From NCBI RefSeq assembly GCF_026210795.1, contig NC_089442.1, positions 4,306,501-4,370,500 of the forward strand: a stretch of 64,000 nucleotides of DNA. Direction: 5' to 3'. This stretch comes from Rhizophagus irregularis. Its lineage: Eukaryota; Glomeromycota; Glomeromycetes; Glomerales; Glomeraceae. This document shows positions 1-14,122 of this stretch, piece by piece (the first letter of the stretch is position 1; the number at the start of each line of letters is the position of its first letter). A program made the position numbers and the translations under genes. The notes beneath the pieces were generated by a model that saw nothing but the letters and a program-made list of their open reading frames with translations, ran no database searches and was not told where the DNA came from.

Positions 1-152
1 TTATTGTTAAAGATGTTAGCCTTAATTATTTTTTAAAAAATTTTGAATTACGGCTATAAGATTTTTATAGCCTTAATTAATTACGGCATATAAAAATTTT
101 GTATTACAACACTTTTTTGAATTACGGCTAATATCTTTAATTATTGTTATCC
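1..152. repeat. Inverted-repeat insert cut by the window edge
   Basis: The two ends of this stretch are near-complementary: a TTAAAGATnTTAGCC block at the left is matched by the reverse complement of the block near 120-145, with GAATTACGGCTA copies inside. It replaces the expected continuation of the host pseudogene just after its WITII segment, so it is probably another short inverted-repeat (MITE-like) insertion. The outer end may lie outside the window, and no target duplication can be tested. Confidence 0.45.
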
Positions 153-364
153 ATTTGGGTTTTGGATTCAATGTTTCAATTACAGTATAGAGGGAAGATG
201 CAGTAAACCATACATCTTGGCACGTATTGTTAGACCAATGATCAAATACTTGAACATCCAGTTTATTTTGTTCCATATTTTTGGTATATACAAGTACAAA
301 ATGAAAATTCCAACCGCATTTTTCAAAAAACTCTGTTTTGGTCTCACATGCACTTTGAGGTAAT
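153..364 (-). pseudogene. Host repeated gene, fragment 3 (DDE-recombinase-like)
   Basis: This minus-strand stretch continues the frame of the fragment at 609-1184 once the MITE at 365-608 is removed (MRILPQSACETKTEFF). It then reads through a clear conserved-looking segment (LDVQVFDHWSNNTCQDVW, then SSLYTVIETLNPKPKWITII). The gene breaks off at the insert on its downstream side. From memory, very similar proteins occur in many copies in Rhizophagus and continue with an SDNG-type motif like that of DDE recombinases; this continuation is not in the window. I infer a multicopy, transposon-related gene rather than a housekeeping gene. No catalytic function can be shown. Confidence 0.6.
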
Positions 365-616
365 TAAGGTTGCTTGCTGAAATCTAGGGGTTTAGGCAAG
401 ATGGCGTTTCGCCGAAAAGCGAAATTCTGCCGAAACTATATTAAAATTATATTAAAAAACTGGTGAAACTTTGGAGAAAGGCAAAACTGCTGAAACTTAT
501 TATAAATGCCGAAACTGCCAAAACTCTGCCGAAACTATAATAAATCTATAGTAAAATTTTGATGAAACTAATCGTAAGATTTTGAAGAGGTTTAGACAAG
601 CAACCTTAGAGGTAAT
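357..616. mobile_element. hAT-type MITE (365-608) with 8-bp target duplication
   Basis: The 244-bp body begins TAAGGTTGCTTG and ends CAAGCAACCTTA, a perfect 12-bp terminal inverted repeat. It is flanked on both sides by GAGGTAAT (357-364 and 609-616), a perfect 8-bp duplication as made by hAT transposases. The interior repeats the phrase GCCGAAACT and has no coding potential. It sits in the host gene on the minus strand; deleting the body plus one duplication restores an open frame. It is non-autonomous and was probably moved by an unseen hAT element. Confidence 0.88.
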
Positions 617-1184
617 ATTCTCATTTTGTAATCTACAATTATTACAGCACCTTCATCATCCAATTCTTCTAAATTTGTTCATACATGAATATTTAAGTAT
701 ATTTGCGGACATGATGTGCCATCCATGCTATGAGTTTTTGCTGATATTCATCAAGAATTTCAAAATACTCTTCACTTATTGCTACTTTTAATTTTTCAAA
801 AAAACTAAAAATACTTTCACATTTTGAACAGGTAATTGGATGATTAAGATTACAGTCTCCAAAGGTATGTTATATACAATGACTAATACAGGAATTATGA
901 ACTGTGATACCAGCTGCTGTAACCTCCAGTTCTTTTAAATATTCTCAACGTATATATCGATGCAATTCTTGTGATTTTGTTAATAAACGTTTCTAATAAG
1001 ATAAAATATATTAGAATTCATACTTGCAAATTTTAATAAAATTTATTTTTACCTTTAGAGATTCATTCATAACATGGGCAGAAATAATTACTCCAATATC
1101 TCCAAATACCATATAATCACAGTCATTACATGTAGAATATAATCCACCTAAATTTTCTTGGTATACATATTGATCACCTTCAAG
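609..1184 (-). pseudogene. Host repeated gene, fragment 2
   Basis: On the minus strand this fragment begins exactly at the hAT target duplication. It reads EGDQYVYQENLGGLYSTC and then NDCDYMVFGDIGVII, so the frame continues from the fragment at 9565-11338. A GT-AG intron lies at 993-1052. After it the reading is LLTKSQELHRYI and then a Cys-rich segment (NHPITCSKCESIFSFFEKL). There are internal stops (for example in HRYI*EYL) and a frameshift near VRKYT, so the copy is dead. The paired cysteines (STCNDCDY, TCSKCES) suggest a zinc-binding segment, but no family is assigned. Confidence 0.7.
1177..1184. repeat. hAT target-site duplication, left copy
   Basis: CCTTCAAG immediately precedes the left terminal inverted repeat and is identical to 9557-9564 after the right terminus. 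Eight base pairs is the duplication length of hAT elements. Confidence 0.9.
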
Positions 1185-1202
1185 TAAAGATGTGTCCGCA
1201 AT
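1185..1202 (+). repeat. hAT left terminal inverted repeat
   Basis: TAAAGATGTGTCCGCAAT matches the inverted right end (9539-9556) at 16 of 18 positions. Confidence 0.85.
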
Positions 1203-1254
1203 ACCCTAATTGTGGATTAATTGCGATTTGCGATATTGCAGAACATTGCAGATT

Positions 1255-1375
1255 TTGAAGAATAATTATTCGCAAATCTGCAATCGCAAATAATCTGCAA
1301 ATCCGCAAATAATCTGCAAATCTGCAAATAATCCGCAAATAATCCGCAAATCCGCAAATAATTCGGAATATACAA
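1255..1375. repeat. Left subterminal repeats of the hAT element
   Basis: At least eight short words of the form (C)GCAAATCTGC / TCCGCAAATAA follow each other. The same word in both orientations reappears at 9420-9490 near the other end. Clustered subterminal motifs are the usual binding sites of hAT transposases, so these are inferred recognition sites. Confidence 0.65.
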
Positions 1376-1809
1376 CTAAAGTTTCATGTCAAAAATAAAG
1401 AGTTTTGATGTCAAAGTATATCAATACCAAAAAAGCCAAAATTATGATTGACTGTAGATCATCATCACATGATCATTTTTTTTTGTAAAATATTCTCACC
1501 AAAGCGAAAAAAAATTTTCTTGCCAGAATACGAGAATATTATTTCCAATAAATAATAATAATATATCAGATTATTCAGCCATAATCAATACACAATTATA
1601 TATATCATTATACCAAACTCATTCTATCAAACGTATTACAATATACAATTACGTATTAAAACAATCGCATTATCAAATGTTATTATTTGATCAAATAAAT
1701 AAATATCAGTTTTTACAGTTTTTAGTACCCCAATTGCTTTCTTCCCTCTTCATTTTAAAAATAAAAAATAAAGTATCAGCTTTTAAAATATTGAATAAAT
1801 ATATTAGAA

Positions 1810-4441
1810 ATGTTAAAAACACCCTGTTCAGTTCTCAATTCAAAAATTCGCGGGAAAAAAGTTTATTTACCTGACGATGATGAAAGCTTAATTTCAACAG
1901 CACTTTCTCTTGTTTGGACAAAGGTGGATAAAAAAATTGATTCGTATATTTTCGAGCAAGATAGAGTAAGAATGTCATATAAAAAAAATGAAGGTCGTAT
2001 ATATTTTGATCTGGAGGAATCATTGTCAAATTTTACATTTATCGATAAAGTATATGATAATTTTGTCCCCTTCCCCTTTATTTTGTTTCTGTCCATTTTT
2101 CAGTTTTGGACAACTTTGTCCACTTTTTTTCGTCTCTGGACAACTTTGTCCACTTTTTTTTCGACTTTGTCCATTTTTTTCGTCTCTGGACAACTTTGTC
2201 CACTTTTTTTTTTGTCTTTGTCCGCTTTTTTTTTTCGTCTTGGACAACTTTGTCCACTTTTTTTTTCATTTTTGCCGCTTTTTTTTTCGTCTCTGGACAA
2301 TTTTGTCCACCTTTTTTTTCGTCTTTTTTTTGTTCCTGGACAACTGTAATTTTATTTTTATTTTTATTTTTTTATTTTTTCAGAATAATCTGGCTGAACT
2401 TCAGCATTACAAGTCTCTATATGAATCATATAAAAGTAAATACGAATTAGTTTTGAATCATAATGTTAGATTAGAGGTAAAGTATAAAAATGATATTAAT
2501 TTTTAATTTATAAAATTTATATCTTACCTTTTTTTGTTAATTTCTAATAATAGAACAAATTGCAAAAGTACTCTACTCCAGTAATGGCAGAAAATACGCG
2601 TTCAAGTGACACAGCTGGTACAGCTGATATTGATTCTAATGTTGATGAATCCTTAAAACAATTGTTAAATTATTCAACACCCGAACATTCCCCTTTGAAT
2701 CTTCAACATCAACTCTTCGCTCATCATTATATCGCGAGTCTAATAACTCAGAACTTGCCCGCGTTATAAACTGTGATTTGGCATTGAACAATCTCACAAC
2801 TTTTGATACAGCAGAAAATATTTGGGCAAATTTAAATCTGCGATGTATTGAAAAATTTGGTAACCAAAATCACATAAAAAATAATATTACTATTTCAGAT
2901 ATAACGTGGGCCAGCATGACATTGCCAGCTTATCGCAGTTGGAATATGATGAAAAATTATTATTATTATATTAATAGCTGGATAACAAAAATTAATAATT
3001 TCTGTAAATCAATATTTGTCAATTATAGAATTATTCTTGATTACAAAACTTTATAATAATTTACATCTTAATTTTATAGGTAATAATAATTCTCAGACTG
3101 CTGATATTGCAAATTCAGACTCTATAATAGGAGAATCAAGCTACCATAAAAGTACTGAATTGAATTCACCTCTACAAGCGCCACAAGTAACTAATGAAAG
3201 TGCCAAATTGAATTCACTTTCGCAATCGCTACCGGTAGCTAATGAAAGTGCTGAATTGAATTCCCCTCTACAAGCGTCACCTGTAGCTAATAAAAGTGAT
3301 AAACTGAACGCGTCACCGGTAGCTAATGAAAATAATGAATTGAATTCACCTCCACAAGTGTTACCGATAGCTAATAAAAGCGCCGATAATGAAAGTACCA
3401 AATTGAATTCATCTATACAAGCTTCACCGGTAGCAGTACTGGAAAAGTATCGTGGTGAGCACTGTCAACAAAGGCATCAGTAAGATCACCCACATTGAAA
3501 TTAGCAGAAAAAGTATCGGTGCAGAAGTGTTTAGTATGTAAACACAAACTTCAAAAATGAAAACGCTAGTGGAATCACAAGCATTAGTTTCAGAAGTGTT
3601 AGAAGAATCTCAAGAACTAGCATCTACATCAACATCATTAGTAAGAAAATGTAAACTTAACTGTATTGAAATTTCCTCAGATGAGAATGTTGATGAAAGT
3701 GACCATGATGATAAAACTATTATGAAAGAAAAGTTGAATTCTGCCCAAATGCTTTTGTTTAAGAAGGAAAAGAAACTACGTGATATTTTGTTAGCATCAA
3801 ATGATGAGCATCTCGTTACCTCAGAACCATCAAAAACTTCTGCGATATTCAACGCCTTGGCTGAATTGTCAATGGCTGAAAAAATTACAGTTGTCGACGA
3901 GAAGTCCGTTATGGACAGAATTAATCAATGGAAAAAACAGGAGTTATGTTGTGAAAGCCTTGTGATAGAGTCAGAGTCTTTCAATTTGCTACATTTAGCA
4001 TCATTAGTTCAAATTTATGATGATCTTTCAATGCTTGCTGAAAGATTAGAAATTAAAAATACAAAATCCTGGGTGATCTCTTTTATGTGAAATAAGCTTA
4101 ATATCGATCAAAAAGCTGAACAGAAAAATAGGTTGGGGTGCGACAGATTGCACAAGTTATTTAATGATGGAATAACACCTGCGCAGCTTGCGCAAGCAGG
4201 TTGTCGCAAGTGTGATTTTTTTGTAAAGCAAAAATATTATAATATATTTTTGTCTCAAATTCCCGCTCATCAATCAATTACTTCAAGCCAACCAGATGAA
4301 CGTATCTCTGTAATTATGTCAAATCAAGATTTCACTATACCAGAAGGAAAAAGTGATGTTGTATTTAAATTGAGTTTAAGCGAAGAATTCAGAGATTTAA
4401 GGGAGAAGTTTAAAGGAAGTGAGTATATCGAATGGGCATAA
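1810..4441 (+). pseudogene. Companion gene of the hAT element, unknown function
   Basis: I do not recognise this family. Exon 1 (1810 to about 2049) encodes MLKTPCSVLNSK through DLEESLSNFTFIDK. A GT-AG intron of about 330 bp then holds the TGGACAACTTTGTCCAC array. Exon 2 (about 2383-2477) gives LAELQHYKSLYESYKSKYEL, a likely coiled coil, and exon 3 starts near 2555 in the same phase. A one-base frameshift near 2700 is needed to continue into the ARVINCDLALNNLTTF segment. From about 3150 to 3440 lie six or seven degenerate units of about 16 residues (SAELNSPLQASPVANE type). A stop-ridden join follows, then 3557-4441, where an in-frame TGA (after TKSWVISFM) precedes GCDRLHKLFNDGITPAQLAQ and a C-x2-C pair. 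It lies inside the hAT boundaries, upstream of and co-oriented with the transposase, so it was carried by the element. It could also be a captured host gene. Confidence 0.5.
2100..2345. repeat. Palindrome array 1 (TGGACAACTTTGTCCAC)
   Basis: About eight units of TGGACAACTTTGTCCAC, some truncated to the right half-site, are separated by T-rich spacers ending CGTC. The whole array lies within an intron of the companion gene, between a GTATATG donor and a TTTTTCAG acceptor. Apparent open frames through it are repeat artefacts. Confidence 0.85.
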
Positions 4442-4587
4442 TACAGATTATTATTTTTATTATTTAGATTAAATTGCAGAACGTAAAATTAGGTATACGC
4501 AGTAGATTATGAAATGCAAATTGCAAAATTTTTATTACAATTAAAAAGTTTTATTTTGGGATTTATAATTCTTTTTTAATATTATGT

Positions 4588-4980
4588 AAAGTGGACAAAA
4601 TTGTCCAAAAGATATATTACGTAAATTGGGATAAATAATTGTACGCAGCATATAAGATATAACAAATGATTTAATTTTAAAAAATAAAAAGATATATTAT
4701 GCGAGTTGGGATAAATAAGTGGACAAAATTGTCCAAAAAGATATATTACGAAATAAGTGGACAAAATTTTCCAAAAGATATATTACGAAATAAGTGGACA
4801 AAATTTTCCAAAAGATATATTACGAAATAAGTGGACAAAATTGTCCAAAAAGATATATTACGCGAGTTGGAATAAATAAGTTGGACAAAATTGATATATA
4901 CGCGAGTTGAGATAAATAAGTGGACAAAATTGTCCAAAAAGATATATTACGAAATTAGTGGACAAAATTGTCCAAAAAAT
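4588..4980. repeat. Palindrome array 2 (GTGGACAAAATTGTCC)
   Basis: Eight copies of GTGGACAAAATTGTCC, two of them mutated to TTTTCC and one cut short, are spaced by AAAAGATATATTACG-type linkers and GAGTTGGGATAAATAA blocks. The array lies between the companion gene and the transposase. The core is the same palindrome as in arrays 1 and 3, but the spacer is unrelated. Confidence 0.88.
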
Positions 4981-5098
4981 AGATCGACTTTATAATATTT
5001 AGTATAAAACATACGTATTTTCAAAGTTCAAACTTTATCTATTTTTTTTTTGAAAATACTTTAACTTACTTTTTCTGGTTAACCGAAATTCATTAATA

Positions 5099-6207
5099 CA
5101 GTCAACTCCCTCTATAGTCACTCCCGTTATAGTCACATTCTACTATATAGTCACACCAGTTGAATGTTCAAAACACTTTATTATTAAAAACTATCCTATA
5201 TAGTCACAATCTATCTATAGTCACTATCACACCTATCCTCAAAAATCTTATATTAAAAAGAACCGTTTATAATCACAGTTATATAAGGAATATATTAAAT
5301 AACTTGGCATCTAATAATCGTACAAAGATGTATCATAGCTTGTTAGAATCGTCTCACTGAGATGAATCGAATGGATGTGGTTTTATCCCTTTGCGATCAC
5401 TGGCTGATGAGTTATTCAACAAAATGTTAAGCATCGGCATTATTATATTTCTTGATTTACGTTTACTGCGCCATTTAACATTTTGCTAAATTTCTCGGTA
5501 CCTAGTGATTGTAAAAAGACGATTAATAGCTCGTTGGAATCGCCTCATCGAGACGAATCGAATGGTGGTAAGCTCATCACTCTGTGATCAATATTGACGG
5601 AGTTATTAATTAAAAACCATTTAATATTTTTTAATTTCGGAAATTGATCTAGTGATTGGATTTCGATGTATCTTATACCATTAGATTCGTCTCATCAAGA
5701 CGAATCGAATGGTAGTAAGATTGTCTTTCTAGGATCAATATTAGCAGAGTTATTACACAAAAACCATTAATATTTTTTTAATTTTGGAAATTAATATAGT
5801 GATTGGATTTCGATATATTTTATACCATTAGAACCGTCTCATCAAGACGAATCGAATGGTGGTAAGAACGTCTCTCTAAGATCAATATTGGCGGAGTTAT
5901 TACACAAAAATCATTAATATTTTTTTTAATTTCGGAAATTAATCTAGTGATTGGATTTCGATGTATTTTATACCATTAGAACCGTCTCATCAAGACGAAT
6001 CGAATGGCAGTAAGATCATCTCTCTATGATTAATATTGGCGGAGTTACGATACAATAAAGTTTTGAGTATAATTTTGGCTAAAATTATGTTAATTTTTGG
6101 CCAGAATTATGATATACTAATATAAGAAATTTTTTATATAGTCACATCTCTTTATAATCACCAAATATGGACTGTCCCAAATGTGTGACTATAAAGAGAG
6201 TTGACTG
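5099..6207. mobile_element. Mariner/pogo-like non-autonomous element
   Basis: The ends are CAGTCAACTCCCTCTATAG and its near-complement CTATAAAGAGAGTTGACTG, flanked on both sides by TA (5097-5098, 6208-6209). TA duplication and a CAG start fit the Tc1/mariner/pogo group. TATAGTCAC is repeated five times just inside the left end and again near the right. The 1109-bp interior has no transposase; most of it is a 147-bp tandem repeat. It is nested in the hAT element and so inserted later. Confidence 0.8.
5342..6012. repeat. 147-bp tandem repeats inside the pogo-like element
   Basis: Five copies share TCTCATCAAGACGAATCGAATGG, listed here by the GACGAATCGAATGG core. The core recurs at 5363 (variant), 5554, 5701, 5848 and 5996, so the last four are spaced 147, 147 and 148 bp. 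Each unit also holds AGTGATTGGATTTCGAT and a GGCGGAGTTATT block. Units 3 to 5 are most alike, suggesting recent amplification. No coding. Confidence 0.85.
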
Positions 6208-6364
6208 TATTCTCAAAATGTAACTATGTAAGTACGTGACTCAACATCCCTGAATACTCCTGAATTTAAACCCGAATTGTTGACAAAATATTTCGCGCTT
6301 ATTTTCATCATTTCATTAGTCGTTTATTTTTAATATTTTAGGTTCCTAATTTTTCTTTGATAAA

Positions 6365-9022
6365 ATGACAAGTTCAGAACCTTTAGAAAATTTAAGAAAA
6401 GGACGTCATTTTACAGAGGTGTGGAATGGACATATGATAAAAGGAATACAGAGGACAAGAGGGCATTACGCTGCGACATGCAGCTATTGTAACTTTTGTT
6501 GAAAGGATGGAAAACCTCACGTTTTACGTGAGCACTTAGAAAATCATTGCCGAAAATGTCTGCAAGAAGTGTCATTACAGTTCGCAAAAATTGTAGGTAA
6601 TGAAATAGCAGAGAACGAAGAAGATGATGAAAGCGAATCAGAATTAACAACTAAAAAACAAAGGCTCAATGATGGCCAAACATCCATCTGATCTTTTTAC
6701 AAGAATAAAGAATTAGAAAAAGGTTATTGTGATGAAATAAATCGTTCAGTTACAAAAGCTTTCATAATGTGCAATATTCCTTTCAGTATAATTGAAAATC
6801 CTTGGTTTATCGATTTGATCAAAACTTTACAACCAGGATATGATCCTCCCTCAAGGCAAGTTTTGAATGGTACTTTATTAGAATCTGAAACATCTCGCGT
6901 AAATATATGCATTATGAATGAATTAAGTGCTGACAATAACTTTACTATTGGTAAGATTTTTTAATTTAAATTAAAATGAAGAAATTTTTGTAAAATATTA
7001 ACAGTTTTGATATGTATTTATGTTCATTAGCGATAGATAGTTGGACCGATCCACATGGGAATAGCCTTTGGGCATTCATGTTAATGATTGGGTCAAAGAA
7101 AGAATATCTTTTAAGTCTTGAGGATCTTTCAAATATTCGCCATACAGGAGAGCATTTATCTAACGTTATTGAGAAAGTTATCAATAAAGTGGGAGCCAAA
7201 AAGTTTGTTGCTATTGTGTCAGATAATGGCTCGAATGTTGCAGCAGCATGTAAAATAATTACCAACAATTACCCAAATATCATTAATGTGCGATGTATCA
7301 CGCATTGCGTAAACCTGATAAGCACGTCTATTGTAAAAATAGATGAAGTTAAATATATAGTGAGATGTGCAAACATTCTAACAAAATATTTTAAAAATTC
7401 TACCCTTAGATCATCATGGCTCAATGAAACAATCAAAAGTAAAAATATTGAAGGCGGAGGGCTGAAAACTTACGTAGAAACAAGATGGATGACTGTCTAT
7501 GAATGCACTGGTAAAAAAATGGTCTATCCTACACATATCCTACACATATCTTACATATATCAGGTACTCAAAATGTAGAAAATTATATACAAATAATACA
7601 CATATCATACACATATCGGGTACTTATATATATAGTATACCTATCAGGTACCTGATATATGTATGATATATATATTAGTACCCGATATGTGTATGATATG
7701 TGTATTATTTGTGTATGATTTTCTACATTTTGAGTACCTAATATGTGTAAGATATGTGTAGGATAAATCATTTTTTTACCAGTGATGTGTACATTCTGTG
7801 TGGAGATTAAAAGATGCTTTACAGCACGTATGTTAATAAGATGAATTATTTTTTTTTTTAAAAAAAAAATTTAATTTTATTTAAATTAGGTTCTGGAAAA
7901 TCACGAACACGAAATTTCAAATCAAGCTATTAAAGTTATTTTGAAAAAATGAGGGTTTTTTGACGATGTTCGCGTAATATCAGATATTCTTAAACCGATA
8001 AAAGAGGCAATTCTTATGCTTGAAAGAACGTATACTACATTGGCAGATTGTTACCTTTATCTCCTTAGAATTGCAACTTTTTTTAAACAAATGCCAATGA
8101 ATGATTACCGCTCATTAAAGAATTCTTGTATTAAAGCCTTCAATGAGAGGTAATATTCAAAATAATTTTAGTTTAATAAAAAACTAAATAACTGAAGTAA
8201 GTAATCAAATTTCTTTAATAGATACAAAGAATTTGACGAAGATATTTACTTATTGGCTTTCTTTCTCCATCCGCAATATAAAGGTATTACTAATATAAGA
8301 AAAAATAATTAAATAAGATAAATAATTTATTCTTTATAAATATTGTAGGAGCGGGTATCTACAATACTCAATTTGAACGTATCCAAAAAACTGCGCTTAA
8401 TATTTGGAAGAATTTGGGTCATAAGAAAACTTTAGGTTTAGAACTTAAGGCACAGCTTCGCAAGTATTTGGACTAAGATAACCCTTATAGCGCACTATAT
8501 TCAAATAATGATGGGCCTTTTCAGTGGTGGAACTTAATAATTGATGGGCGCAGCTCATTATCTCGTCTTGCAAAAATTGTTTTTTCAATAACACCACATT
8601 CAGCCAGCTGCGAACGCCTTTTTTCAGCCCTTGGATGAATGTTTGGTAAAAGGAGAACAAATTTAAATGTGCAAACCATTGAATGTATGTCCAAAATTTA
8701 TACTCATAATATTCATTCACTTTCAAATAGTAAAAGATCCTTGAATCACATTGGAAATAGCATATCAAATGACGATGTTCAAAAAATGATAGATAATTTA
8801 TTTGAAGAGGGAGACATATTAAATGAGAATGAAGATGAAGAGGAGGAATATGAAGAGCCACCCAATATGCAAAAAGAAAGTGTTGACGAGATGTTAAATA
8901 TCGAACAAGTGATAGATTTGGGACCGTGGGTGTATATTGAATCTTCCGAGATTCCATTCATGTTTAATAATAAATATAATAGTGAAAATGACAACGACTG
9001 GAATCCAGAAGAGATTGTTTAG
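6365..9022 (+). pseudogene. hAT transposase with BED zinc finger, decayed
   Basis: The start is ATG 6365 (MTSSEPLENLRKGRHFTEVW). A BED-type finger follows (CSYCNFC, a stop where Trp is expected, then GKPHVLREHLENHC). The catalytic core reads LAIDSWTDPHGNSLWAF, FVAIVSDNGSNVAAA and GGLKTYVETRWMTVYEC, typical of Ac-like hAT enzymes. The C-terminal dimerisation block reads SRLAKIVFSITPHSASCERLFSALG and then GKRRTNL. An acidic tail ends in DWNPEEIV. Introns: 6951-7004, 7828-7889, 8150-8221 and about 8286-8348. Defects are stops in the BED finger, in QTSI*SF, ILKK*GFF, KYLD*DNP and SALG*MFG, a phase break at the first intron, and a hairpin MITE at 7511-7787 that splits the core. The enzyme cannot be functional as it stands. 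It probably once mobilised the enclosing element. Confidence 0.9.
7511..7787. mobile_element. Hairpin MITE inside the transposase
   Basis: The arms CACTGGTAAAAAAATGG and CATTTTTTTACCAGTG are complementary, and the pairing continues through TCCTACACATATC, GTACTCAAAATGTAGAAAAT and ACACATATCATACACATATCG, so almost the whole 277 bp folds on itself. It separates TVYEC from SVWRLKDALQH of the transposase, which are adjacent in intact hAT enzymes. I could not find a clean target duplication. Confidence 0.75.
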
Positions 9023-9118
9023 TAATACTAAATTGTAATAAAAACAATTTTATTTTGTAATTACTAATAAAATATAAACAATAAAAATAATGATGATCCT
9101 CTACTCGATAAATAATAA

Positions 9119-9420
9119 AAAGTAGACAATTTTGTCCATTTTGAATCATGTTAATTTAATCTTCGCAATTAAATATAATCAAATTTATTTATATACTAAA
9201 AAGTGGACAATTTTGTCCATTTTGAATCATGTTAATTTAATCTTCGCAATTAAATATAACCAAATTTATTTTTTATATACTAAAAAGTGGACAATTTTGT
9301 CCATTTTGTAAACTCATAAATCAAATTTATTTATATACTAAAAAGTGGACAATTTTGTCCATTTTGTAAACTCATGAATCATGTTAATTTAATCTTCAAA
9401 AGTGGACAATTTTGTCCACT
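9119..9420. repeat. Palindrome array 3 (GTGGACAATTTTGTCC)
   Basis: Five copies of GTGGACAATTTTGTCC, the first mutated to GTAGACAA, alternate with 57-85-bp blocks containing AATCATGTTAATTTAATC and ATTTATATACTAAAA. The array lies just after the transposase stop. The core matches arrays 1 and 2. Confidence 0.87.
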
Positions 9421-9556
9421 TATTCGCAAATTTGCGATAATGTAAATTATTTGCAGATTTGTGAATTATTTGTGGGTTTACAGATTACTAAGCGCAATTG
9501 ATTTCCAAAACCCGCAATATTGCGGATTTTGGAAATCAATTGAGGACCCATCTTTA
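9420..9556. repeat. Right subterminal region: repeats, 48-bp palindrome, terminal repeat
   Basis: Words of the TTCGCAAATTTGCG / ATTATTTGCAGATTTG type mirror those at the left end. Positions 9495-9542 form a near-perfect palindrome (CAATTGATTTCC .. GGAAATCAATTG) centred on CGCAATATTGCG. The terminal inverted repeat ends at 9556. Confidence 0.75.
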
Positions 9557-9564
9557 CCTTCAAG
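9557..9564. repeat. hAT target-site duplication, right copy
   Basis: CCTTCAAG is identical to 1177-1184. On the minus strand the reading SFMTCLE enters the duplication and is continued by EGDQYVYQ at the left flank. Confidence 0.9.
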
Positions 9565-11338
9565 ACATGTCATAAAAGATGTATGACGCATATCATTAAA
9601 GTACTCTTCTGCAAATCTTTTCTATAATGCTTTTTTCATGTCTTGTAAGTATTATTTGATTGGTTTTTCTGATTTTGCATCAGTTTTGTATGAACTTATA
9701 TTGATAAATTCTTTATCATTTAAAAATCTGTCAATTTGTTCAAATATTTCAGGTGTAAATCTTTGTCAGCAAATTATTGGTTTTACAAGCAAGGGGATCC
9801 ATAACCATTCGATATGCGTACGCTTGCAAGATTCTACAATAGTATGTAAACCAATCTGTATATATTTATTATAAAAACAATATAAAATTTTACATTATTG
9901 TATCAGTAATAATTTTTTGCAAATTTTTCATTGTCTTTTTTACATCTAGTTTATTTACATAATTTTAAAAATAAAGGAATAAATAATTCAAGAACATGTA
10001 TATTAAAATTTTACATATAAAGCAAAACTATAAAATATTACATTCAAATTTTATTTTAGTTTCCCATAGGTAAACTCATTGGAAATTATAGAAAGTATAC
10101 GTCTTTTTCCATCAGGAGTTTTTTTGATATTAGCAAGTGTATGTTCAAAACACATCCAAAATGTATGTGTTGCGTTTGGTATATTTTTTGGAATATTAGT
10201 AAGAAAACCACTTTTATATAAAGCAGCAAATGCTACCTTGTCTACTTCTCCATTTGGTAATTTTGTCCATAATTGACGCCAATAAAAAAATATTTATTTT
10301 AGTGTTTGAAGATAAAAAAAATAACAATAAAAATATCACAAATTTACCGACTTTTGATTTTTCAGGTAACCAAGGAGTTATATTTGTTGCACCAACTGCT
10401 TTTAGCATGGTTTGCCATGCACTTAATTCACGTTCATTAAATTCATATCTTTTTGGATATATAGCATGCAAAGCAGGTTCTAATTCAATTATTGGATTTT
10501 CAGTTTTAACCCAACTTGTAAAAAAATATTTCCAATTAGCATTTGTCAGAGTTCTTCTTTTTACATGATAATCAAATAACCTTTTTAAAATATATTCATC
10601 ATTCCAGTCATTAAGAGTGCATTGAGTTTGATGCTGCTGAATTAGATTTTTTGTAATTGGATTATCAAAACCATAAAGTTGTGTACTGGTAAATTTTTTC
10701 AGTTATCCTGTTTTTTCCCACACTTCATCTGGTGTTGTGCCTTTAAATTGTTTTATTAAAGTAGATTCTCAGTAAATTTCAACAATGCATTATTTTTCCT
10801 CAATCCATAATACAAAAATTGACTGCTTTCTTTCATATATATGAAGAAGGGATAATTGAAAACCTGATTTTGCATAACGCCATTTTTTGCGTGAAGAAGT
10901 CCCTATACCATAAATAAAAATTATACAATTTTCTACATTAACAGTAATGGGAATATGTTAAATATCTTGTTTTAAAGTTTCAAGGATATTTTTGTCATTC
11001 CAACCCATTGCTTGATACCCTGAATAGCGTGTTGAAGTATTGAAACGGTTTTTATAAGCTGTAGAAATAGCCTTTGTAGAATTTAGCTTTGTAACAACAT
11101 ATAAACCACTTTGACAACAATACATTGGCATTAATTTGTTATTACCAGAACCAGTTTATATAGTTAAAATAAAATTTACTTCGTTAAGACAAACTTTAGT
11201 CTGTTGTCCCAGCCTAATCGGAAATAAAGTTTCATTTTCATTTGAAATTATTCACCAATAAAAAGAATAAGGTCCATAGTGATGTTTAGGAACTATAGTT
11301 CCTGGTTTTATTAAAGTAACACGTAAAGTTTGAGCCAT
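9565..11338 (-). pseudogene. Host repeated gene, fragment 1 (N-terminal part)
   Basis: The minus-strand start is ATG 11338 (MAQTLRVTLIKPGTIVPKHH). Recognisable stretches are KVCLNEVNFILT, MPMYCCQSGLYVVTKLNSTK, FNTSTRYSGYQAMGWNDKN, YPKRYEFNERELSAWQTML, GATNITPWLPEKSKV and THFWMCFEHTLANIKKTPDGKRR-like text. Introns lie near 10275-10370 and 9875-10070. At least seven in-frame stops interrupt it, so it is dead independently of the hAT insertion. The order on the minus strand is 9565-11338, then 609-1184, then 153-364. I recognise it as a multicopy Rhizophagus-type sequence but know no function; a DDE-recombinase-like origin is inferred from its C-terminal part. Confidence 0.6.
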
Positions 11339-14122
11339 TATGACAGTTTTTAAAGGTTGTCAATGAGAGATTTAAATTTATTACAACTGGTTATAATATA
11401 TCTTATTCCCAAATTTACTCATATGATCTGATGCCAATCATTTGCAGATCATGACTTAAAGTATTTATAAAATATAAAATTTCTTTAAAAAATGATTTGT
11501 AGTATCTAAAATTAACATAATTATAAGTTAATAAATATAAAATAATAATTAATTTATAATAAAAGTAATGTTTATTTTAACAAAAAAATTGTTAGTTTTT
11601 TTAAAAGAAAGTATTTTATAATAAAATTAATTATATAATAGGAAATTAGTAATTAATTATTTTAAAATAAGTAATTTATTATAAATATTATATTGTAAAA
11701 ATAATAATTAGTATATTAGAAAATATTTCTTTTATTATTTTAGTTATAAAAATATTTTTTTATTATTTAATTATCTTATTAGTATTATTTTAAAATAATA
11801 TATATTGTAAATACAATATATTTTCAATATTTGTTCTTTGTTATTTTTCAAAATAGCAAATTAATAAATATCTTTTTTAATTATAAATATAAATTAAATC
11901 CTTTTCAAATTACATTATACTTGATTTATGATAAAAGTAATTATTAAATAAAAGTATAAATGCAAAGTATATAAAAGAAATTTTTAAATTTTAATTGTAA
12001 AAATAAAAATTATTAAAGTAAAATAATATTTATTAAAAAATATATATATTTAAATTAAGTAAAATAAAAAATTAATTTATGTAATAAAAAAATCATGTAA
12101 ATAATGTAATAAGAAATATAATTATTTTTTTTTTTAAAATTTAAATAAGTTTTATTAGAAAATTTTATTTAGTTGAAAGCATTTATATAAATAAAAAATA
12201 AATATATATTTTATATGCAATACTTAAATTTTATATTTTGTAATAAATTTATAAAGAAAATTTCTAAGTTTACACAGGGTGTTTGTACACAGGTCATATA
12301 AATATAATTTTTAATAGACTAATTTTTTGTTTTATAATTTGAAATTGAATGCTACTGACATTATACTCTTTTACTTTTTATTCTTATTATATTACAGATA
12401 AATATATGTATTTTCACCTGCTCTGCAAGTTTACTTAAGGCATTAAAGAGGTTTTGAATGCTGTTTTTAATCTACTAATATGACCTGTGTTTAAACACCC
12501 TGTGTACAAATAGAAATTGCCATTTATAAAATAATTTTTTTAAAAATTATATATTATATATATTTTACCTGTTTTAAATGTTATTTTTAATTTATTTGAT
12601 AATTTTTTTTCAGTTTTTTTTACTAAATTATAAAATAAATTTAATTTTGATTAAAATTTATTCTTTTTTGAAATAAAGATAAGATTTAAGTATTTATATA
12701 TAGAAGTTGAATTTAAATTTACTTTATATATAAAAAATATATATAAATTTTATTTTATTACTAATTAAATTATTGTATTTTTGAAAAATAAATTAATTTA
12801 TTAGTTAGAAAATAACCATATTTAACTAAAGAGAAAATTAATTAATAAATAGAAATATAGAATTACATAATTTTTAGTTAAACTTCAAAATTGGATTGTA
12901 TTAAAATTAATGTAATTTCTTATTATTTAATTAATTTTCTTTTCAGTTAAAATTAGTAATACTATTAGTTATATAAGTAAATTTTATTATTTTATTATTT
13001 TTATTTTTTATTTTTTATTATTCTTAAAAAATAGGTTATTTTTATTAAATTCTCTAGTAGGTTAGAATTATATAATAAATCAGTTCTCTACCTGCTAGTA
13101 AATATATTTTATAAGCATTGAATTAGGCTAAAAAAAGGAATTAGTGCTTAGTAGTTAGCAGTAACTAATTAAAGTAAAATTTCTGAAAAAAATAAAAATT
13201 TCTATCTGTATAATAAATAACAAAAATCTAAACTAAAAAGAAATTAATTTTTCAATAAATAAACTATCCAGCCTCCTAAATGTCACCTTCTGTTTATTAC
13301 CTTTTCATTATTATCTTCAATTCTATTAAAGTTGTCATTTAGTAATTCTAGGTTTCTTTTTCTTTTTCTTTGAAACTTGTAGTTTTAATTGGAAGGTCCT
13401 CATATATAAGTATTGATGGAAATCCGGTTAGTACCTGTGATTTTATTCTTTTAAAAAATTACCTTTTTTAATTAATTAATTAATTAATTATTATTTTTTA
13501 ACTTAAAATTACTATTCAACTTATTTTATTAAAAAAAATTTACCTTATAAATTTAAATAAATTTATTTTTTTAACTTTTAACTTTTATATAAATCTTATT
13601 TTAATGGTATTATCTATTATAAATAACTAAAATTTTATTAAATTAGAAATAATTAAACTATATATAATATTAAAATTAAGAAAAAATGTTTAATTTTACA
13701 ATATTTTATATATATAAATTATTTATCTAAAGATTTTGGATAAATTTTTATATAATAAATTTAATATCTTTTTTATTAAATTTAATCAATTTTAATATGT
13801 AGTAATGCATTTTATATATTTTACTATTATTAAATTTACTATGTAAAAAATTTTTATAATAATAATTAATACAATACTATAATTAAATTACTATAGAAAA
13901 AGATTAAAATAATAAATTTTTTTTTTTAATTTAATGCCCCCGTTGGCATATGGATTTCACATAGTACTATAATAACACAATTAATTTTGAATCCACCCAC
14001 CCGACCTGCAGATATTGAGCATTAAATATTAAAAATAATAAATTAATAATAACTATTTATTCTAATTGAAAATACTATTTAATATATTATTTAATCTATA
14101 TACAATTATAAAAATAAGTAAT
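11339..14122. other. AT-rich gene-free spacer
   Basis: About 2.8 kb of extremely AT-rich DNA with no open frame or splice pattern that looks coding. It contains the Tc1-like MITE at 12273-12504 and an (AATT)n run near 13470. A slightly GC-richer patch at 13935-14020 (CCACCCACCCGACCTGCAG) is unexplained. Confidence 0.7.
12273..12504. mobile_element. Tc1/mariner-type MITE
   Basis: The ends read CACAGGGTGTTTGTACACAG and CTGTGTTTAAACACCCTGTG, inverted copies extended by GTCATAT, flanked by TA on each side (12271-12272, 12505-12506). The 232-bp body has no coding. TA duplication fits Tc1/mariner. Confidence 0.82.

Follow-up and report, generated by a model that had tools for sequence, protein, structure and literature searches.

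Introduction

Elements of the hAT superfamily of DNA transposons have 8-bp target site duplications (TSDs), short terminal inverted repeats (TIRs), subterminal repeats, and a transposase with DUF659 and dimerization regions. The element described here, from the arbuscular mycorrhizal fungus Rhizophagus irregularis, has all of these, but its group differs from the superfamily in carrying a conserved second gene without a fold match (ORF1) and three palindrome arrays, and in having the transposase gene inverted in the sister subfamily. A similar arrangement is known from the VANDAL elements of Arabidopsis, for which the available text of PMC5735166 describes a second gene beside the transposase, VANC, which encodes an accessory protein with tandem peptide repeats, and a short motif that forms tandem arrays within introns and upstream regions of these elements. 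The likeness lies in the arrangement of parts, and unlike the VANDAL motif, the motif here is a spaced palindrome, whose carriers are fungal hAT and Kyakuja-Dileera-Zisupton (KDZ) elements. Another parallel is offered by the TET/JBP genes, an accessory gene which, according to the available text of PMC12730594, occurs in several unrelated superfamilies, hAT and KDZ included, and has been transferred between them. However, the product there is an enzyme, and that text mentions no DNA array cognate to the gene, whereas ORF1 comes with its own motif; the word Rhizophagus is absent from the main text as available. No description of a hAT element with ORF1 or with the palindrome motif was found in the titles and abstracts that searches of the open-licence literature listed.

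Insertion of a hAT element into a repeat-family gene

The window, the whole stretch of 64,000 nucleotides analyzed here, contains a hAT transposon of 8,372 bp (1185..9556, genes on the + strand) that entered one copy of a multi-copy gene with an 8-bp duplication. The original prediction of an 8.4-kb hAT element delimited to the base is borne out by these features and by the DUF659 and hAT dimerization regions of its transposase. The perfect duplication of CCTTCAAG (1177..1184 and 9557..9564) and the TIRs with 16 of 18 matches (1185..1202, + strand; 9539..9556, - strand) were both recovered at the positions first given, and subterminal repeats of the CGCAAATAATC type lie inside the left end (1285..1362, + strand), with an inverted match at 9430-9487. 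Positions 1185 and 9556 correspond to the termini of all five other copies that were read at both ends, which have the same TIR end bases and none of which runs past either position. Perfect 8-bp TSDs flank three of these five (ACTGGCAA, ATGATAGG and GTAATGGC), the TSD of the copy on contig C2 matches at 5 of 8 bases, and the copy on C26 is without one.

The interrupted gene lies on the - strand, with its upstream part at 9565..11459, the next part at 609..1176 and a further part at 132-364. It belongs to a repeat family with 82 protein matches in the genome and no Pfam family above the cut-off. The left flank of the element, on the minus strand, reads LEGDQYVYQENLGG..., and in two paralogs (L013 and L014) an unbroken protein, SFMTCLEGGQYVYRENLGG, runs across the site. 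The DNA of five out of five aligned paralogs, 94-95% identical, has a single CCTTCAAG, which fixes the insertion to the base; the predicted empty site was thus found, but in paralogs only and at that level of identity. Removal of the element had been expected to restore the reading frame of a host gene. The frame does rejoin locally, but this member of a large repeat family is otherwise damaged: it has a stop within a stretch that is open in paralog L014, it contains a separate hAT-like miniature element (MITE) of 244 bp (365..608, GAGGTAAT duplicated; read by eye and from the homology gap), and its homology is lost near 132. Excision would mend the frame only locally. Nor did a clean relative date for the insertion emerge; the private changes give only a rough one. 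Private changes number 85 among 2,005 sites of the host copy, against 139 in 5,755 sites of the window's hAT copy, and these figures suggest that the insertion hit a host copy that was already ageing.

Two MITEs, together 1.4 kb, entered the hAT element later. The first (1,109 bp, 5099..6207), which has TA duplicated and ends CAGTCAACTC.. and is presumably of Tc1/mariner or pogo type, is missing from all five other copies read at its site. The second, a fold-back element of 279 bp (7506..7784) with ATG duplicated and ends CACTGGTAAAA.., which we take to be of CACTA type, is missing from six out of six.

The transposase gene (6365..9022, + strand) is broken by stops and a nested insertion, and ORF1 is broken in this copy as well. 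Its DUF659 domain (PF04937) lies at 7033..7374 (+ strand, E 2.4e-22), and the C-terminal dimerization region, at about 8504..8683 (+ strand), was placed against another copy, L042, on which PF05699 is matched with E 1.6e-6; the window piece scanned (8639-9022) has no match to PF05699. No N-terminal BED-type zinc finger was matched by Pfam in the window copy or in L042; the Cys/His spacing resembles that of such a finger. A changed genetic code in which TGA encodes tryptophan was rejected as an explanation of the transposase stops, because the copy on C15, as read by eye, has a sense codon at three of the four noted TGA places; it is also disfavored by the finding that C>T and G>A account for 78 of the 139 changes private to the window copy.

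A second gene under constraint

Elements of this hAT group carry ORF1 as a second gene besides the transposase, together with arrays in which the palindrome GGACA-N4-TGTCC recurs. ORF1 (1810..4441, + strand) has four proposed exons (1810-2049, 2384-2476, 2554-3003 and 3080-4441), in a splice model whose frame was tested across exons 1-2 only. Within it, repeats of 48 bp (3144..3434, + strand) encode a tandemly repeated peptide of 16 aa. Among 45 ORF1 loci in the genome, 22 have a hAT transposase (among the 43 best matches) within 10 kb, and 12 have neither a hAT nor a KDZ transposase among the matches listed. Viewed from the transposase, ORF1 lies within 10 kb of 22 out of the 26 hAT transposases of at least 67% identity, the other four being without it. 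The two genes are on the same strand in 7/7 cases in the window's subfamily and on opposite strands in 15/15 cases in the second subfamily.

On ungapped tblastx segments between the two subfamilies, dN/dS is 0.125 for ORF1 (343 codons) and 0.148 for the transposase (578 codons), with shifted-frame controls at 0.96 to 1.57, which indicates that ORF1 is under purifying selection. The pieces of ORF1 match no Pfam family above the cut-off, and the search for a relative of solved structure gave a best E of 0.68, which is not meaningful; a DNA-binding fold is therefore without support from either source. A search for relatives in viral contigs confirmed none among 198 candidate stretches.

ORF1 could be an accessory transposition factor which, like TnpA of En/Spm elements, binds the arrays and joins the ends or regulates transposition, instead of counteracting silencing or acting on transcription, and a constraint equal to that on the transposase would suit such a role. 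We nevertheless regard it as rather unlikely, in part because none of 17 hAT transposases at 49-51% identity has ORF1 within 10 kb, yet many of these are multi-copy with long open frames, although a very divergent ORF1 would escape detection.

Palindrome arrays near ORF1

The window has 14 GGACA-N4-TGTCC sites against 0.01 expected, all of them within the element: five in array 1 (2108..2308), inside the proposed ORF1 intron 1 (2050-2383), five in array 2 (4593..4973), between ORF1 and the transposase, and four in array 3 (9205..9417), after the transposase. The 54,444 bases of the window that follow the element contain none, and neither do 91,314 bases of 29 loci of host paralogs. The genome has 1,467 such palindromes, against 21 for the reversed pattern. 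Under the proposed splice model, the VANC-type trait of motif arrays in the non-coding DNA of the element, an ORF1 intron included, is present. Concentration of the motif in the elements, another VANC-type trait, holds for the hAT-type motif, the other motif types being less exclusive (see below). In the window copy, and likewise in the single element of the second subfamily that was read over its full length, the outer arrays are no more than about 1 kb from the ends, which favors an accessory transposition factor; however, the arrays in the proposed intron 1 and between the genes are better suited to regulation.

When spacers of 0 to 8 bases were tried, only 4 occurred, in hAT A, hAT B and C20 KDZ alike. 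The outer base pair is T..A in hAT A (71/73) and hAT B (14/14), and A..T at C20 KDZ (30/30). A third ORF1 group, to which we turned once the motif had been defined, likewise carries an array (C2:5830542 onwards).

It might be argued that the palindromes are host-factor sites or mere tandem repeats, and that ORF1 is a passenger captured by two types of transposon. Such capture has a precedent, as TET/JBP genes are common to DNA transposon lineages in other fungi according to the available text of PMC12730594, and among the first 100 of 1,377 listed places (C1 and most of C2), seven of the eight clusters of non-A type are without a detected ORF1. Some of these ORF1-free clusters, with 36- or 99-bp spacing, may be coding repeats. 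We consider the passenger reading improbable on three grounds. Of the first 100 of 185 places with the hAT-type motif GTGGACAAAATTGTCCA, 99 fall in 14 clusters, and all 14 adjoin an ORF1 locus, against one of eight for the other motif types. By reading of C1 up to 3.22 Mb, arrays track ORF1, being present at all four listed hAT matches with ORF1 and at none of the three without it. Moreover, core and spacer are fixed while the linkers differ between arrays.

ORF1 homologs and the motif beside KDZ transposases

The ORF1 + array unit is shared, by association, between hAT and KDZ elements, the latter identified by their transposase (PF18758, E 1.7e-28). An ORF1 homolog lies within 10 kb of 11 out of 14 KDZ loci, where about 0.6% would be expected per locus; three are without it. 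These 11 are perhaps four lineages rather than 11 independent events, namely a group of four copies and one of five, both with near-constant ORF1 spacing (with about 0.9 kb more in one of the four copies), and two further single loci, one of them on C5. Arrays with the same 4-base spacer were seen beside the transposase in both multi-copy groups, at a single locus in each (C20 and C2), whereas the 2 kb read at the C5 element contain none. The window element is unlike these in having no KDZ gene, with ORF1 and the motif the only common parts, and none of the 14 KDZ loci is on its contig, C14. On the direction of the ORF1 transfer, the placement of hAT A plus B against KDZ C5 has a support of only 77/80. 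As judged from these sequences, the gene-plus-array unit was probably passed between transposon superfamilies. Neither the second gene, nor the arrays, nor the KDZ link had been part of the original prediction.

That the same module adjoins an unrelated transposase also counts against ORF1 as an accessory transposition factor. It weighs further on the idea that the hAT transposase binds the arrays by its own N-terminal zinc finger, like the subterminal repeats that abstracts in the literature describe as important for other hAT transposases. We hold this to be highly improbable, since KDZ elements, with their unrelated transposase, have the same motif and spacer, and since the element ends already have a different subterminal repeat, of the GCAAAT type.

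A possible self-recognition module

We therefore return to the comparison with VANC. It seems to us reasonably probable that ORF1 encodes a DNA-binding protein that recognizes the arrays of its own element and acts against silencing as VANC does, and that this module moved between superfamilies. ORF1 would bind GGACA-N4-TGTCC as a dimer, and the arrays in its own intron 1, ahead of the transposase and close to the end would let it mark its own element. An element so marked might be kept from silencing or switched on, as VANC does for VANDAL elements. The simplest route for the gene-plus-array unit would be from a C5-related KDZ element to an ancestor of the hAT group. We suggest more tentatively that what passed between KDZ and hAT elements in this arbuscular mycorrhizal fungus may be a portable self-recognition module, a DNA-binding gene with a palindromic address array, anti-silencing or activating, and invented independently of plant VANC.

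About half of the fungal genome is repeats (available text of PMC11075540), and most transposons of Rhizophagus irregularis are highly methylated, with numerous hAT copies low in methylation (available text of PMC8647823); a methylation test may thus be feasible from existing data. If our reading is true, a gene and its cognate array in two transposase families would amount to a natural experiment on the requirements of transposons beyond a transposase, and escape from silencing would become testable in a repeat-rich fungus.

Results

Across the 146,748,485 bases and 32 contigs searched, ORF1, a gene carried by the hAT element of the window (C14:4306501-4370500), was found linked to its transposase, to a palindromic motif and to a second transposase family. 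The element occupies 1185-9556. Its terminal inverted repeats agree at 16 of 18 positions, and CCTTCAAG flanks it on each side. Its transposase contains DUF659 and a less damaged copy (L042) additionally has the hAT dimerisation region; the identity given by the original prediction is correct. The exact ends proposed there also hold, as all five other copies with both ends read stop at identical bases (three have perfect 8-bp target site duplications, one a duplication with 5/8 matching and one none). Without its nested MITEs the element is ~7.0 kb long, similar to the 7,254-bp copy on C15, and several other copies contain large extra stretches, each copy's own. MITE 1 (5099-6207; 1,109 bp, TA duplicated) is absent from 5/5 copies read at the site, and MITE 2, a fold-back unit (7506-7784; 279 bp, ATG duplicated), from 6/6. 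The latter also occurs at L054:7727-8006 and L055:7904-8182 (96-97%), close to left-end pieces of the window's hAT on C11 and C32. Short units of ~1.2-1.7 kb with similar ends (L045-L049), whose left ~155 bp are ~80% identical to the window element, are, from this resemblance, its probable non-autonomous relatives. Of the 146 substitutions private to the C2 copy (L041), 125 are C>T or G>A, a pattern suggesting that it decayed through deamination of methylated cytosine.

ORF1 (1810-4441) precedes the transposase as a gene of its own; it has four proposed exons, is broken in the window copy and has no recognised fold. A 132-aa piece used as query gave 49 matches, hand-merged into 45 loci; linkage was assessed against the best 43 of 155 transposase matches (two matches of one copy merged), from a search in which 150 of 658 candidates were scored. 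One of these 43 lies within 10 kb of 22 of the 45 ORF1 loci, and 12 of the 45 have neither transposase among the matches checked. ORF1 is present at 22 of the 26 transposases with at least 67% identity, leaving four close ones without it, versus none of the 17 at 49-51%. Where both genes are present, they lie on the same strand in the window subfamily (transposase identity 88-100%; 7/7) and on opposite strands in the second (67-71%; 15/15). In a second-subfamily element read whole (C1:3139680-3146484), the terminal inverted repeats are similar, ORF1 and both ends are collinear with the window type and the transposase block is inverted relative to it; its flanks carry no matching duplication. 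Comparison of the two subfamilies gives a dN/dS of 0.125 in ORF1 and 0.148 in the transposase, and shifted frames give 0.96-1.57. These values are approximate because synonymous sites approach saturation and the ungapped tblastx segments used (five for ORF1, six for the transposase, stop codons skipped) are biased to conserved parts. Judged by sequence comparison, ORF1 is a kept gene rather than a chance frame.

The window contains 14 sites of the palindrome GGACA-N4-TGTCC, where 0.01 is expected, and all lie within the element. They form three arrays: one in the proposed first intron of ORF1, one between the two genes and one downstream of the transposase. In the second subfamily an array likewise follows exon 1, as judged by position. 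Among spacers of 0-8 bases, four is the sole length occurring, and the core is constant across arrays while the linkers vary. GTGGACAAAATTGTCCA is found at 185 places in the genome and its reversed control at none; among the first 100 places listed, 99 fall into 14 clusters and one is single, and an ORF1 locus adjoins 14/14 clusters. On C1 up to 3.22 Mb, by reading, arrays stand at four listed hAT matches with ORF1, and none stands at three listed matches without it (1995641, 322824 and 2998203). The first 100 of 1,377 places with non-A palindromes, spanning C1 and most of C2, contain eight clusters, and at seven of these ORF1 was not detected (C1:4821601, C1:4892240, C1:4906689, C1:6614049, C2:540527, C2:5576344 and C2:5588869); some have a spacing of 36 or 99 bp, and these are possibly coding repeats.

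Distant ORF1 homologues (27-35% identity) occur elsewhere in the genome. The one on C20 (333373-335314) has, by reading, three conserved stretches in common with ORF1. It is accompanied by 30 palindromes at 329372-330761 and, at 340962-341399, by a KDZ transposase (PF18758, E 1.7e-28); in the 16 kb read, seven ORFs gave no hAT domain. At the outer base pair, 85/87 hAT sites have T..A and 30/30 sites of the C20 KDZ unit have A..T, a difference that could reflect a shifted specificity. Over 4 kb, this KDZ-bearing unit (L063) is ~100% identical on C17, C20, C25 and C28, indicating recent spread. ORF1 lies within 10 kb of 11 of the 14 KDZ loci found in the genome (23 matches, hand-merged), the other three being partial matches. 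The 11 comprise a 4-copy group (ORF1 and transposase ~7.1 kb apart in three copies and 8.0 kb apart in the fourth), a 5-copy group (2.36-2.37 kb apart in all five) and two single loci, and thus perhaps four lineages. The group of C2:5837016, examined after the motif was defined, has at least one array of GGACATTATTGTCC, from C2:5830542 on. At the single locus on C5, ORF1 and KDZ are ~5 kb apart, with no array in the 2 kb read. An unrooted tree of the ORF1 core, built from five loci and having one long branch, splits KDZ C20 and C2 from both hAT subfamilies and KDZ C5 (100/99), and pairs the two subfamilies (77/80). The simplest reading of this tree would be a single transfer into hAT from a KDZ element near that of C5.

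The gene interrupted by the hAT element belongs to a family with 82 protein matches in the genome. The joined reading frame of the original prediction is real, and the empty site is seen in five paralogous loci, each with a single CCTTCAAG and, across an alignment of 2,074 columns, 94-95% identity to the window. Six paralogous matches end at one and the same base, 11459; homology to paralogues ends near 132, indicating another insertion or break at the window's left edge (1-131). No Pfam model scored above cut-off for the family (window 132-11459 and L009-L038), which looks transposon-like by copy number. Some copies have identical scores on several chromosomes. The window copy has a stop codon where one paralogue (L014) stays open, and is also interrupted by a separate hAT-like MITE, identified by reading (365-608; 244 bp, TAAGGTTGCTTG ends, GAGGTAAT duplicated). 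Among 2,005 comparable sites, 85 changes are private to this host copy, and C>T or G>A accounts for 70 of these; the five paralogues have 3 to 21 private changes, and the hAT copy has 139 in 5,755 sites. If decay rates were similar, the host copy would have started decaying before the hAT insertion; the comparisons differ in references and base compositions, so that of the clean date once expected only this rough order stands.

Discussion

ORF1 is under constraint in hAT elements and tied to a palindrome array, and its homologues and arrays also stand beside a second transposase family. A search of titles and abstracts found no description of such a module, and the sections available to us of studies on hAT families and methylation in R. 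irregularis (PMC11075540, PMC8647823) do not mention an ORF1-type gene. We suggest that the ORF1 protein binds the array as a dimer and acts on its own element. The overall layout of gene and arrays is like that of VANC and the VANDAL elements of Arabidopsis, in which, according to the part of PMC5735166 available, VANC binds a short motif that tandem repetition has multiplied within introns and in upstream regions, and itself has variable tandem peptide repeats; ORF1 likewise carries tandem peptide repeats, coded at 3144-3434. Moreover, as with the TET/JBP genes, described in the accessible part of PMC12730594 as accessory genes common to several fungal transposon superfamilies, ORF1 is an accessory gene found in more than one transposon superfamily.
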